Shown here: one piece after another, positions 2,037 through 60,225 of the stretch | Layout: each line of letters starts with the position of its first letter | Numbering within the stretch: position 1 is the first letter of the stretch | Assembly (NCBI GenBank): GCA_015066625.1 | Contig: SVOC01000005.1 | Span: 24,094 to 88,093 of the forward strand | Origin: Oscillospiraceae bacterium | Lineage (GTDB): Bacteria > Bacillota > Clostridia > Oscillospirales > Acutalibacteraceae | Direction: 5' to 3' | Length of the DNA: 64,000 nt | Made by a program: the position numbers and the translations under genes | Notes under the pieces: model-generated | Told to the model about the DNA's origin: nothing | Database searches by the model: none | The model's input: the letters and a program-made list of their open reading frames with translations, nothing else

Positions 2037-2043
2037 TAAATCA

Positions 2044-2139
2044 CCTTATCTTCCGACATTACGCCGCAGGATTTAGCACCTTGCATAACACAGGTTGCCG
2101 GGCTTCAAAGGGCCTGTCCCTCAGCCTCTCTCAATAAGG
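2044..2139 (-). promoter_or_regulatory. SAM-I (S-box) riboswitch aptamer
   Basis: Read on the minus strand, the segment has the S-box landmarks in order: CTTATTGAGAGAGG..GAGGGA at the 5' side, GGCCCTTTGAAGCCCGGCAACC in the middle, AAGGTGCTAAATCC later, and GGAAGATAAGG closing helix P1 with the 5' CCTTAT. These are the conserved residues that contact S-adenosylmethionine. It is followed by an intrinsic terminator and then metK, the classic arrangement for transcriptional OFF control. Confidence 0.96.
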
Positions 2140-2159
2140 ACATATTCTATTGACACTTA

Positions 2160-4072: not shown

Positions 4073-5896
4073 TTAATTGTTGTCGTCAACGTCTGTGTAG
4101 TTTGCTTCGGTGTAACCGTTGTCACCTGCACCGGCATCGCCCTGCTGAGCCTGAGCTGCTTCTGCAGCTGCCTTATAAAGTTTCTCTGATACTTCGTGGA
4201 ACTTTGCAGTAAGCTCGTCCTGACGGCTCTTGATAAGGTTGATATCTTCGCCCTTGAGAGCTTCCTTAAGAGCATCAATCTTTTCATTCACGCCTGCTTT
4301 TTCGTCTTCGCTGAACTTATCGCCGTTTTCGTTCATAAGCTTTTCACACTGATATACCATCTGGTCTGCGGCATTGCGTGTGTCAACATTTTCACGGCGT
4401 TCCTTATCTTCCTGTGCAAATTTCTCTGCATCTGCAACAGCCTTTTCAATATCTTCCTTGGACATATTTGTTGAGGAAGTGATGTTGATTGACTGCTCCT
4501 TCTGTGTACCGAGATCCTTTGCGGAAACATGGACGATACCGTTGGCGTCTATATCGAAAGTAACTTCAATCTGAGGAATACCTCTGGGGGCGGGCATAAT
4601 GCCGTCAAGATGGAACACGCCGAGAGTTTTGTTATCTCTTGCAAATTCTCTTTCACCCTGAAGAACGTGAACTTCAACTGAGGGCTGATTGTCTGCAGCT
4701 GTTGAGAAAATCTGGCTCTTCTTAACGGGGATAGTTGTGTTTCTGTCAATAATCTTTGTGCTGATACCGCCCATGGTTTCGATACCCAGTGAAAGGGGTG
4801 TAACATCGAGAAGAAGAAGACCCTTAACCTCGCCGCCGAGAACACCCGCCTGAAGTGCGGCACCGATTGCAACACATTCGTCGGGGTTAATGCCCTTGAA
4901 AGGCTCTGTACCCATAAACTTCTTTACAGCTTCCTGAACAGCGGGAATTCTTGATGAACCGCCTACCATAAGAACCTTATCGATTTCTGATGTCTTGAGA
5001 CCCGAATCGTTCATTGCCTGACGGACAGGACCCATTGTAGCATCAACAAGGTCTGCTGTAAGCTCATTGAACTTTGCTCTTGTGAGAGTCATTTCAAGGT
5101 GCTTGGGACCTGTTGCATCTGCTGTGATGAAAGGAAGGCTGATGTTTGAGGTTGTAACACCTGAAAGCTCAATCTTTGCCTTTTCTGCAGCTTCCTTAAG
5201 ACGCTGCATAGCCATTTTGTCGCCTCTCAGGTCAATGCCCTGCTCAGCCTTGAAGCCGTCAGCAAGCCAGTTAATAACTCTCTGGTCAAAATCGTCACCG
5301 CCGAGACGATTGTTGCCTGCGGTTGCAAGAACCTCCTGAACGCCGTCACCCATTTCGATGATTGAAACGTCGAAAGTACCGCCGCCAAGGTCATAAACCA
5401 TAACCTTCTGGTCGGTTTCTTTATCAATACCGTATGCAAGAGCTGCTGCGGTGGGCTCGTTGATAATTCTCTTTACTTCAAGACCTGCAATCTTACCTGC
5501 GTCTTTTGTAGCCTGTCTCTGTGCATCGGTGAAGTATGCGGGAACTGTGATAACAGCTTCTGTTACGGTGTCTCCGAGATATGCTTCTGCATCAGTTTTA
5601 AGCTTCTGAAGAATCATTGCAGAGATTTCCTGGGGTGTGAACTTCTTATCGTCAACAGCTACCTTGTAGTCCGAACCCATCTGTCTTTTGATTGAAGCAA
5701 TTGTTCTGTCGGGGTTTGTGATTGCCTGTCTCTTTGCAACCTGACCTACCATTCTTTCGCCTGTTTTGCCGAAAGCCACAACAGAGGGAGTTGTTCTTGC
5801 ACCCTCAGCGTTTGCGATAACTACGGGCTCGCCGCCTTCAATTACTGCTACGCAGGAATTGGTTGTACCCAAGTCAATACCGATAATTTTTGCCAT
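4073..5896 (-). CDS. dnaK: Chaperone protein DnaK (Hsp70)
   Basis: ATP-driven Hsp70 chaperone of the cytoplasm, working with DnaJ and GrpE. The 607 residues carry [13 protein letters not shown] (phosphate loop 1) at the N terminus, [12 protein letters not shown] around residue 170, and [11 protein letters not shown] around 310, the three Hsp70 signatures. The substrate-binding domain and helical lid follow, ending in an acidic tail with VDDNN. The ATG at 5896 lies 9 bases after AGGAGG. Codon choice is strongly biased, as expected for a highly expressed gene. It lies 39 bases after grpE in the CIRCE operon. Confidence 0.99.
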
Positions 5897-58299: not shown

Positions 58300-58337
58300 A
58301 AGGAGTGACTCATCAAATGATGAATCACTCCTTTTCT
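58300..58337. terminator. Terminator between the lipoprotein and CapA genes
   Basis: Stem AAGGAGTGAxTCATC / GATGAxTCACTCCTT (58300-58333) with one mismatch and an AAAT loop, then TT. It closes both converging genes. Confidence 0.82.
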
Positions 58338-59499
58338 ACATCTGTTCCAGAATATACTGTTTTACATCTTCAAGCTTACTTTTTTTCCATTCTCCGCTTT
58401 CCGCTTTCTCTGCAAGAGGGCAAAGAATAAAGAAATCAAGTGTTTCTCCCGGCACACGGCCTGTTCTGAGGGGCTCTGCAAAATGCTCTGCCCACTCCTC
58501 TTCCGTGGCATTTGCAAATCTGTCGGGGTTCAGATAGGTCATCTGCCGTCTTGTGGCGGCAATATGCATCTTTGCCGACAGAGGCGAAAGCAGATTGAAT
58601 TCATCTTCCTGCACATCCGTAAATATTCTCGGAAGGGGTGCTTTTACAATGTGTTCGGGACCTCTGAGGATTTCAAGCCCCATAGGTTCCCATGTAAACT
58701 CCGTTTCGGTGAAATTGATTTTCACAAGCAGACCGAATTCCGTATTGAACTGTGAACGCTGATAATCCGTATCAAAAATAAAATTACCCAGAGAATAGAA
58801 AATTATTTTATCCCCTACCGTTTCGTAATTCATAGGTACGTGAGGATGATGTCCTATAACCATATCCGCACCCATTTCGAGATACAGACGGTATCTTTCT
58901 CTTGTATAGGGCGAAGGCAGCGGAGTGAATTCCTCGCCTGCGTGAGCAACGACGATACACCAGCGGCACTGCTTTTTGATTTCATTTATGGTATTCTGAA
59001 TTTCATCAAGGTCGCTCCAGCTGTAACAGCCCGCCTTATTCTCATCTGCCTTACGGCAGGCACGCTGATATCCAACACCGAACATACCGATCCCCCCTGC
59101 TTCGTCAAGAATAACAGGGCGTCTTGCCTCGTGAATATTCATACCTGCACCTATGGTTTTTGCACCGTTTTCAGCCGCAATTTCAAGGGTACTCTTAACG
59201 CCGAATTCGCCTGCATCCATAATGTGATTATTGCAGATATTCCATATATCCGCATTCATTTTGTTAAGAACTTTCACTGCCTCGGGGTCGATTGTGTGAA
59301 GAAGCTGTTTCACACCGCCCTGAACCGTATTCTGCTCAACAGGTGCAACGGGGCCTTCAACATTTGCAATAACGTGGTCTGCACTGTGAAGAAATTCAAG
59401 GACATCCGACGAGAGAAGCTCTTCGTCATTCCACTGACCGTACATATATCTGTCAAAACCGATATCTCCGGTAAAAACAAGAGTTGATTTATCTTTCAT
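58336..59499 (-). CDS. CapA-family metallophosphoesterase-like protein (no signal peptide)
   Basis: A 387-residue PGA_cap protein that starts MKDKSTLVFTGDIGFDRYMYG, immediately inside the domain, so it lacks the lipobox found in the CapA at 43741. Motifs NVEGPVAP, NICNNHIMDAGE, VVAHAGEEFTP and MVIGHHPHVPMN are the metal-site segments of the family. The C-terminal 100 residues form an additional helical region. It has its own promoter and lies alone on the minus strand. Role in capsule or other envelope polymer handling is inferred from the family name only; a cytoplasmic location makes a capsule role doubtful. Confidence 0.88.
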   Translation of the reverse strand: MKDKSTLVFTGDIGFDRYMYGQWNDEELLSSDVLEFLHSADHVIANVEGPVAPVEQNTVQGGVKQLLHTIDPEAVKVLNKMNADIWNICNNHIMDAGEFGVKSTLEIAAENGAKTIGAGMNIHEARRPVILDEAGGIGMFGVGYQRACRKADENKAGCYSWSDLDEIQNTINEIKKQCRWCIVVAHAGEEFTPLPSPYTRERYRLYLEMGADMVIGHHPHVPMNYETVGDKIIFYSLGNFIFDTDYQRSQFNTEFGLLVKINFTETEFTWEPMGLEILRGPEHIVKAPLPRIFTDVQEDEFNLLSPLSAKMHIAATRRQMTYLNPDRFANATEEEWAEHFAEPLRTGRVPGETLDFFILCPLAEKAESGEWKKSKLEDVKQYILEQM

Positions 59500-59554: not shown

Positions 59555-59584
59555 ATTATAACATATGCAGCCGAATATTGTAAA
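59555..59584 (-). promoter_or_regulatory. Promoter of the second CapA gene
   Basis: Minus-strand -35 TTTACA (59579-59584), 18-base spacer, -10 TATAAT (59555-59560) preceded by TGT (extended -10). It starts only a few bases after the terminator of the upstream RNA, so the gene does not depend on that transcript. Confidence 0.82.
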
Positions 59585-59590
59585 GGGTAT

Positions 59591-59621
59591 AAAAAAACGC
59601 CGAAGCCTTGCAGCTTCAACG
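59591..59621 (-). terminator. Terminator of the structured RNA
   Basis: Minus strand: CGTTGAAGC pairs with GCTTCGGCG (59598-59606 with 59613-59621; two G-T pairs) and is followed by seven T residues (plus-strand A run 59591-59597). Confidence 0.9.
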
Positions 59622-59877
59622 GTAAGATTTGCATTATAAATGAGAAATAACCCTTGACTGATGTTTCTTTACACAATCAATCAAGGGTTATTTCTGTGAA
59701 CTCTTGTTATCTAACATCTTTGGTTAACCTCTCTTTCTGCGGTATTGTCCAACCTTAAACTGTTCGATTATCGTTTTTCGATTAATTTAAGATTGTCGGT
59801 CAGAACTTTTTGATTTGTTTATCTGTTATCTTAAAGTTCTGAGGTTTTTACCTTCTCATTGGTATCACCCTTTCCTT
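59591..59877 (-). ncRNA. Putative structured RNA of about 285 bases, unknown family
   Basis: The minus strand carries promoter, a series of stems and a terminator, with no gene. From the 5' end: AAAGGGTG then ATG AGA AGG TAA (a three-codon frame, MRR); a stem CAGAACTTT / AAAGTTCTG (59802-59843); a 10-bp stem CAATCTTAAA / TTTAAGGTTG (59749-59795) enclosing ATCG-AAAAA-CGAT; then a perfect 15-bp stem AGAAATAACCCTTGA / TCAAGGGTTATTTCT (59643-59695); then the terminator. The downstream CapA gene has its own promoter after the terminator, so the RNA appears free-standing. It does not match tmRNA, SRP RNA, RNase P, 6S or T-box landmarks that I know. A leader-peptide attenuator is the alternative. 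Confidence 0.6.
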
Positions 59878-59883
59878 GACTAT

Positions 59884-59912
59884 AATATAGCATAGATTTC
59901 CGGGGTTTTCAA
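59884..59912 (-). promoter_or_regulatory. Promoter of the structured RNA
   Basis: Minus-strand -35 TTGAAA (59907-59912), 17-base spacer, -10 TATATT (59884-59889) with an upstream TGC (extended -10). Confidence 0.75.
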
Positions 59913-59998
59913 GACGGAATTTTGTACAAAATTAACCTTTTGAAGTTATGTAAAACAGAGATTTTTAGTTATTGTGTCTATAAACCCGTAAATACATA

Positions 59999-60062
59999 TT
60001 GACTTTTAACAGATAATAAGTTATCATTGAAGTGTTGGGGGTTATGAACCCCCTTATTTTTA
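59999..60062 (+). promoter_or_regulatory. Promoter followed at once by a terminator-like hairpin
   Basis: -35 TTGACT (59999-60004), 17-base spacer, -10 TATCAT (60022-60027). About ten bases later comes GGGGGTT-ATG-AACCCCC (60037-60053) and TTATTTTTAT. Taken literally this gives a transcript of roughly 30 bases, so either the promoter is fortuitous or it makes a very short RNA. Confidence 0.4.
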
Positions 60063-60083: not shown

Positions 60084-60120
60084 CAAAAAAATTAAAGGAT
60101 ACGGAAAAATCCGTATCCTT
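60084..60120 (-). terminator. Isolated terminator-like hairpin
   Basis: Perfect 11-bp stem AAGGATACGGA / TCCGTATCCTT with four loop bases (60095-60120); on the minus strand it is followed by TTTAATTTTTTT. No minus-strand gene ends here; it may be a backup for the acetylesterase operon or serve an unrecognised RNA. Confidence 0.6.
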
Positions 60121-60225
60121 CAATTGGTACGAGTGTTCATAACGAATTCAATAAATAAATTGTCAACGGCGGTTAAACACACATTGTTTCATGCTATCAT
60201 TAATAACTGAAAGGAATTGCAAATT

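Follow-up and report, generated by a model that had tools for sequence, protein, structure and literature searches.

A conserved two-part locus of gut bacteria with divergent predicted small RNAs and a short reading frame that stops inside a hairpin

What might a small structured RNA do that carries its own promoter, its own terminator and a reading frame of three codons? The question arose in a 64,000-nucleotide stretch of contig SVOC01000005.1 from an Oscillospiraceae bacterium, referred to here as the window, where an earlier note made from the letters alone had proposed an independent non-coding RNA of no recognised family on the minus strand. It is near certain that this predicted RNA, which we have named RNA-A, belongs to a real family, a conserved locus of two parts that also contains a divergent second predicted RNA, RNA-B. 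The features of the window copy are collected in Table 1.

Table 1. Features of the A/B locus and its neighbour in the window.
Feature	Positions	Strand	Basis or remark
RNA-A (predicted, about 290 nt)	59591..59880	-	Fold; promoter/terminator scan
RNA-A promoter, TTGAAA, 17-nt spacer, extended -10 TATATT	59884..59912	-	Scan; conserved in related copies
Upstream box TTTTGTACAA near the RNA-A -35	59931-59922	-	Column frequencies, 88 copies
Weaker similar box TTTTACATAA, 24 bp further up	59955-59946	-	Column frequencies, 88 copies
ORF1 ATGAGAAGGTAA, ATG AGA AGG TAA (MRR)	59859..59848	-	Ribosome site GGGTGAT, 59870-59864
Stem P1 (CAGAACTTT/AAAGTTCTG)	~59841-59800	-	Fold; differs between copies
Stem P2 (CAATCTTAAA/TTTAAGGTTG)	59795-59750	-	Fold and consensus fold
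ORF2 ribosome site AGAAAGAGAGG	59738-59728	-	Conserved block AGAAAGAGAGG...ATG TTA GAT
ORF2 ATG TTA GAT AAC AAG AGT TCA CAG AAA TAA (MLDNKSSQK)	59717..59688	-	
Hairpin P3	59695-59643	-	Terminator-like in many relatives; U-tract weak in window copy
P4, strong intrinsic terminator behind P3, T7 run	59591..59621	-	Hairpin 59621..59598; terminator scan
Next gene, 387-aa ORF	58336..59499	-	Own promoter TTTACA-18-TATAAT, 59584..59555
RNA-B promoter TTGACT-17-TATCAT, divergent	59999..60027	+	Scan; related copies
RNA-B (predicted, about 30-40 nt), start TGTTGGGG	60033..60061	+	Related copies
RNA-B hairpin GGGGGTTATGAACCCCC with T-run	60037-60053	+	Terminator scan; related copies

The minus-strand RNA is strongly structured, as had been claimed: its minimum free energy over 59880-59591 is -80.5 kcal/mol, compared with -49.35 +/- 4.41 kcal/mol for 200 dinucleotide shuffles, none of which folds as well (z = -7.06). 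The three stems described earlier, P1, P2 and P3, are all present in the fold besides the terminator P4, whose T7 run is the U7 tract of the original description. At the level of sequence, RNA-A also has the promoter and terminator of its own that had been ascribed to it, with a TG in front of the -10 box, and the following gene has the separate promoter that had been read there. The underlying scan returned 4 terminator-like sites against 0.5 in shuffles, and 4 promoter-like sites against a shuffle mean of 3.1; as the latter count lies near the mean, our promoter calls draw their weight chiefly from conservation. The 25-base pattern of the RNA-A promoter, with up to 3 mismatches allowed, has no site in the organism's own genome other than that of the window. 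Modeling the covariance of homologous copies, a check that the earlier note had suggested, shows pairing kept through two-sided changes in both P2 and P3, and P1 is absent from the consensus fold of 16 genus copies (16 of the 19 genus references were used; L023, L024 and L033 were left out). Elsewhere in the window, a separate strong hairpin with a T-run lies at 60090-60125 (minus strand), between the RNA-B terminator and the point where the next upstream gene ends, and a SAM riboswitch (RF00162, 80.5 bits) lies at 2043-2140 (minus strand).

Searches of Rfam 15 with the window and 20 further loci gave no family over RNA-A or RNA-B above the gathering threshold, in agreement with the earlier statement that the family is unknown; sub-threshold matches to miRNA, trpB, BTnc231 and similar families were discarded, being of the sort that a long hairpin would probably attract by chance. 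Literature searches with peptide and nucleotide strings of the locus returned no papers, and we recognised no description of it among the papers listed by our searches, supplementary tables aside (e.g. PMC8040213), where a listing is possible. By blastn, the region is present in 18 of 99 genomes including its own, three of them by short pieces only, with a single copy in its own genome. An exact 31-base pattern finds 32 stretches in named genome records, labeled as Clostridia, Clostridiales, Oscillospiraceae, Lachnospiraceae or Bacillota metagenome assemblies and mostly from ruminant guts according to their titles. Model R1, built on the 3' module from 34 sequences, matches 71 of the 394 order genomes; among 398 genomes of the phylum sample, the own genome is the only one it matches. 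The broader model R2 (120 sequences), which covered the genus, order and class samples, matches 14 of 45 genus genomes, 73 of 394 order genomes (37 of 169 genera) and 23 of 391 class genomes, the own genome being included each time. Outside the order lie 22 of the 23 class matches, 19 of them at E values of 2e-12 or better and 3 weak (E above 1e-5). A number of genomes hold the locus more than once. In the genus, 31 of 45 genomes, including 11 of the 15 of good quality, gave no match, and the locus is therefore dispensable; such absences are soft, given the strict filters in large searches and the many incomplete genomes. The A/B locus is widespread but patchy across many families of gut bacteria. 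As its copies are related, the shuffle and count results given here overstate independence, and counting by sequence clusters was applied to promoter spacing only. We also observed a Gut-1 RNA (RF01706) close to an A/B locus, at 4871-4944 (plus strand) of L100.

Patchy presence, together with neighboring same-strand copies in L056, L078 and L079, is what a small mobile element might leave behind, and a unit in front of a gene could be a cis-acting leader; we consider this pair of explanations hardly credible. With the own copy as query there was no match in 50,697 phage or 72,556 plasmid records, and the exact pattern had none in viral contigs, which gives no sign of a phage, plasmid or viral origin. 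When examined by eye for a transposon or MITE, the ends at P4 and at the RNA-B terminator are not mutual inverted repeats. Jumping within the genus was rejected, as the unit adjoins relatives of the window's 55.6-58.3 kb genes in several relatives (L010, L011, G011, G017 and G027); the relative of the 58336-59499 gene is placed differently, in G020 on another contig. Of 134 copies, 69 have the next open reading frame on their own strand, 59 have it on the opposite one and 6 have none, and by eye the next genes vary between copies. With no fixed orientation of the next gene, RNA-A is not a leader. Of 60 scanned loci, 6 are followed on the same strand by a tRNA-Pro gene at a distance of 60-290 nt (L009, L015, L022, L024, L057 and L073; four of these belong to the genus, two do not), a neighborhood that is perhaps the ancestral site.

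While the proposed independence of RNA-A stands as far as its sequence goes, the term non-coding does not, since ORF1 is usual in the family and ORF2 is nearly universal. A short frame follows the ribosome site in 104 of 105 sense-strand matches of the covariance model, the L156 entry among them being spurious, and encodes 9 amino acids in 57 and 10 in 38 (95 together). These 105 were kept from 162 model matches, the other 57 being dropped as antisense-strand or partial. Reading frame does not enter the model's score, which is based on sequence and pairing; the seed sequences did carry the frame and its peptide pattern, which biases which copies were found. In the window, the ORF2 stop codon forms part of the 5' arm of P3. 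In alignment A4, which holds 120 of 121 references (L120, with a score equal to that of L119, was left out), a stop codon fills columns 64-66 in 116 of 120 copies (TAA 55, TGA 49, TAG 12), and the opposite arm of P3 changes to match (TTA 49, TCA 44, CTA 7). The stop codon is lost in L123 and L156. Over the whole of P3, 97.2% of cells are paired and all 16 of 16 pairs show two-sided changes; none of 500 shuffles reaches any of these measures, and slid versions drop to 30-54%. Because the stop codon and the pairing are maintained together, neither a bare terminator nor a bare open reading frame is sufficient as an explanation.

Codons within ORF2 change synonymously (Leu TTA/CTG/TTG/CTA/CTC, Asp GAT/GAC, Lys AAG/AAA), giving peptides such as MLDIKSEQK, MMLDNKTEHK, MKLDTKTERK and MTLDFKSEQK, and L056 is short of exactly one codon. 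A reading frame and amino-acid pattern kept while codons change, behind a strong ribosome site, could indicate that RNA-A serves as the mRNA of a functional peptide, 9-10 residues long and typically of the form M-L-D-I/N/T-K-x-x-x-K, acting as a regulator or a protein partner. We judge this unlikely: distant subfamilies encode MIEPKSFGK, MLEPASEMK and MKLQIDSEQK and retain the length and the stop/hairpin overlap, leaving length and position better conserved than residues, and pairing in P3 puts a further constraint on the last codons of ORF2. The N of GTTANCC ahead of ORF2 (59724) is, in most copies of the genus, the same base as the N of GATANC in codon 4 (59707); these pairs are A/A, T/T or C/C, which by eye is identity and not pairing covariation, with exceptions that include L014 and L033.

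The arms of P3 (CCCTTGAC/GTCAAGGG) are conserved beyond the need of a bare terminator. This would suit a small RNA that acts in trans by base pairing, with the P3 arms as the seed for target mRNAs and the micro-ORFs serving stability or timing, as would a stand-alone unit without fixed neighbor orientation that is present in several copies in a number of genomes. The in-frame stops of 116 of 120 copies, with their compensating changes, point instead to translation, for which a pure pairing RNA has no need, and we hold this explanation to be a serious candidate, if somewhat improbable.

In 72 of 122 copies P4 follows within 130 nt of P3 on the sense strand, versus 32 of 122 on the other strand, with its T-run 19-65 nt on in 56 of the 72; our script did not find it in the other 50. 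P4 stands behind a strong P3 U-tract in 31 of 54 copies and behind a weak one in 41 of 68, and as it is not commoner after weak tracts, it does not appear to be a mere replacement. We found no antiterminator pairing that holds from family to family; by eye, the 5' leader of genus copies can pair with the P3 arm, and families with GAGG for GGG cannot. The P3 loop GTGTAAAGAAAC, or a close variant, recurs in several families (among them L086, L105, L108, L084 and L088) and is possibly a binding site, with unrelated loops in other families. Between ORF1 and ORF2, one subfamily (L072, L077, L082, L086, L090, L105, L106, L108 and L140) has a near-identical block, CACGGCGGTGT[TA]ACGC, followed by an ATATA-rich stretch; L086 has the variant TTAAACGC, and other subfamilies have TTCCGATnAnATAAATTT and a hairpin of the TCTCGCTTAAGAGA type in this interval. 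The middle region of the distant CACGGCGGTGT subfamily did not line up in the alignment, and no structure was derived for it.

The earlier note had pointed to the frame MRR and its good ribosome site near the 5' end as a possible sign of translation-dependent control. In the window this ORF1 is indeed present behind GGGTGAT, located in a predicted stem-loop, and its shortness recurs in related copies. Among 134 distinct copies examined, a ribosome site and ATG follow 104 of 125 promoter candidates, and the frame they open encodes three amino acids in 68, two in 16, four in 3, one in 1, six in 1, 7-15 in 10 and more than 15 in 5. Two or three codons are therefore found in 84 of the 104 copies, which bears out the hint that this frame matters; on a rough equal-codon expectation, a stop would follow two or three codons in about 9%. 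The peptides are diverse (MYR, MRR, MNR, MNK, MF, MI, MW, MAN, MKS and others), indicating that shortness is kept more than sequence. Some copies (L065, L082 and L085) contain a tandem pair of such frames, and in one subfamily (L075, L079 and L117) ORF1 has 13 codons of the MYTKRQSPKVTGR type in place of 2-3. The promoter, ORF1 and P4 finders were home-made scripts with misses, and some of the 21 of 125 candidates without an ORF1 are script misses, such as L105, which has ATGAGAAAGTAG. Still, with ORF1 not detected behind 21 of 125 candidates and longer than four amino acids in 16, it is not essential everywhere.

Two- and three-codon frames behind strong ribosome sites (MI, MY, MF, MRR) are also what a minigene would look like, in which case ORF1 would tie up ribosomes or tRNA by peptidyl-tRNA drop-off and RNA-A would brake translation when induced. 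This leaves ORF2, P3 and RNA-B unexplained, the codons of ORF1 vary widely, and some members of the family have a long ORF1 or none that we could find; we consider it very unlikely.

The view of the locus as a single RNA unit also has to be amended, as the divergent RNA-B is usually part of it. Its pattern, consisting of a TTGACA-like box, 16-18 nt, a TATAAT-like box, a few bases, a TGTTGGG(G/C)-type start and a hairpin, is present in 91 of 129 copies, with 0 on the opposite strand and 2 in shuffles, and lacking by that measure in 38. A T-run follows within 50 nt in 73 of the 91, and folding of the first 42 nt gives -13.4 kcal/mol, compared with -6.7 kcal/mol for shuffles. As this pattern was shaped on copies already seen, a strict version, likewise written from genus copies, and the promoter spacing are better tests. 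Across 45 genus genomes the strict pattern has 12 matches in 11 genomes, all 12 beside an RNA-A copy: 11 of 14 carriers have it, 3 of 14 do not, and 0 of 31 non-carriers do, with 1 match for a reversed control pattern. In the genus, the longest matches of the homologous segment run from the RNA-B terminator through the RNA-A terminator. A role for RNA-B as an antisense of RNA-A, or as part of a type I toxin-antitoxin pair, was rejected, as the two do not overlap and the complementarity of the 12-nt RNA-B 5' end to RNA-A is not beyond chance in 62 copies (8.06 versus 8.41 in shuffles).

The distance between the -35 boxes of the two promoters falls into steps of about one DNA turn: in 88 copies it is 64-65 bp (4), 74-76 bp (51), 84-86 bp (32, the class of the window at 86 bp) or 49 bp (1). 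The phased spacing thus holds in 87 of 88 copies, and when sequence clusters are counted instead, 59 of 60 belong to one of the three phased classes. Between the promoters lie two boxes of the TTTTGYACAA type, and in the window those at 59922..59955 (minus strand) form a possible operator. The phasing and the two boxes together suggest that a protein or DNA-shape effect may act on both promoters.

We tentatively favor a reading in which RNA-A is an attenuator without a downstream gene, with ribosomes on the two micro-ORFs gating P3, though our confidence in it stops somewhat short of even. When a stop codon occupies the A site, the ribosome shields about twelve bases of the RNA downstream of it. 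At the ORF2 stop this footprint takes in most of the P3 arm, which is the ground for reading RNA-A as an attenuator, and the resemblance of ORF1 to frames that report blocked initiation is the ground for reading it as a sensor. While terminating at the end of ORF2, a ribosome would mask the 5' arm of P3 and let transcription continue to P4, giving a long form; an RNA with no ribosome at ORF2 would end or fold at P3, giving a short form. ORF1 may set the number of ribosomes that reach ORF2, or the folding of the leader, and a protein bound between the promoters may control both RNAs jointly. Because no gene follows consistently, the output of RNA-A would act in trans. Taken as a whole, the A/B locus may be a regulatory locus of a new kind, with two divergent small RNAs from helically phase-locked promoters, in which RNA-A is a gene-less attenuator or ribosome sensor whose start-X-stop and stop-in-hairpin frames report the status of ribosomes at initiation and termination through two trans-acting RNA forms; this full picture is possible, and we lean against rather than toward it.

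If the mechanism is true, leader-peptide logic is used in bacteria without a gene to lead into. The micro-ORFs lie at the lower limit of open reading frame size and are omitted by lists with the usual length cut-offs, and the locus, absent from Rfam, is carried by gut bacteria whose small-RNA regulation is little explored. The coupling of stop codon and stem and the phased divergent promoters yield clean predictions.

Several known systems resemble parts of this arrangement. Dual-function small RNAs such as SgrS/SgrT, SR1 and RNAIII are small independent transcripts with an open reading frame. RNA-A, with its conserved promoter and terminator sequences, would resemble them in this; its frames are far shorter (3 and 9 codons), and one has its stop codon fused to a hairpin. 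The lambda bar minigenes tie up ribosomes or tRNA by peptidyl-tRNA drop-off. ORF1 is built in the same way, as a start, one or two codons and a stop behind a strong ribosome site, but it is not isolated, lying within a structured RNA that holds a second frame. In leader-peptide attenuation of the pyrBI/trp type, a short frame ends at or in the terminator stem and the ribosome covers that stem. RNA-A has the ORF2 stop in the P3 arm, with covariation, in 116 of 120 copies, and ORF2 is in our reading translated; in contrast to those systems, the A/B locus has no regulated downstream operon, and ORF2 is only 9-10 codons long with no run of control codons. Pth1 and mini-genes are the subject of a general statement in an abstract (PMC3856088). 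The attenuators of ARE-ABCF resistance genes have tripeptide uORFs (MIN in vmlR, MR[I/M] in cplR and MK[L/Q] in vmlR2), which are described as sensors of ribosomes blocked at initiation (PMC9226507, PMC10201436), the MIN frame of the vmlR leader lying in a stem-loop (PMC9226507). These leaders and RNA-A share a frame of three codons that lies in a 5' stem-loop behind a strong ribosome site, and the leaders, at about 200 nt, contain an intrinsic terminator, as RNA-A does. The uORF close to the 5' end, about three codons in those attenuators, has 2-3 codons in 84 of 104 copies of RNA-A. RNA-A differs in having no constant downstream gene, the next gene of the window having its own promoter; in adding ORF2, mostly of 9-10 codons, which overlaps a terminator-like hairpin; and in belonging to a unit that often includes a second terminator and a divergent RNA. 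While membership in either class fails on the downstream gene, the tripeptide-uORF and leader-peptide attenuators are the closest to RNA-A in their working.
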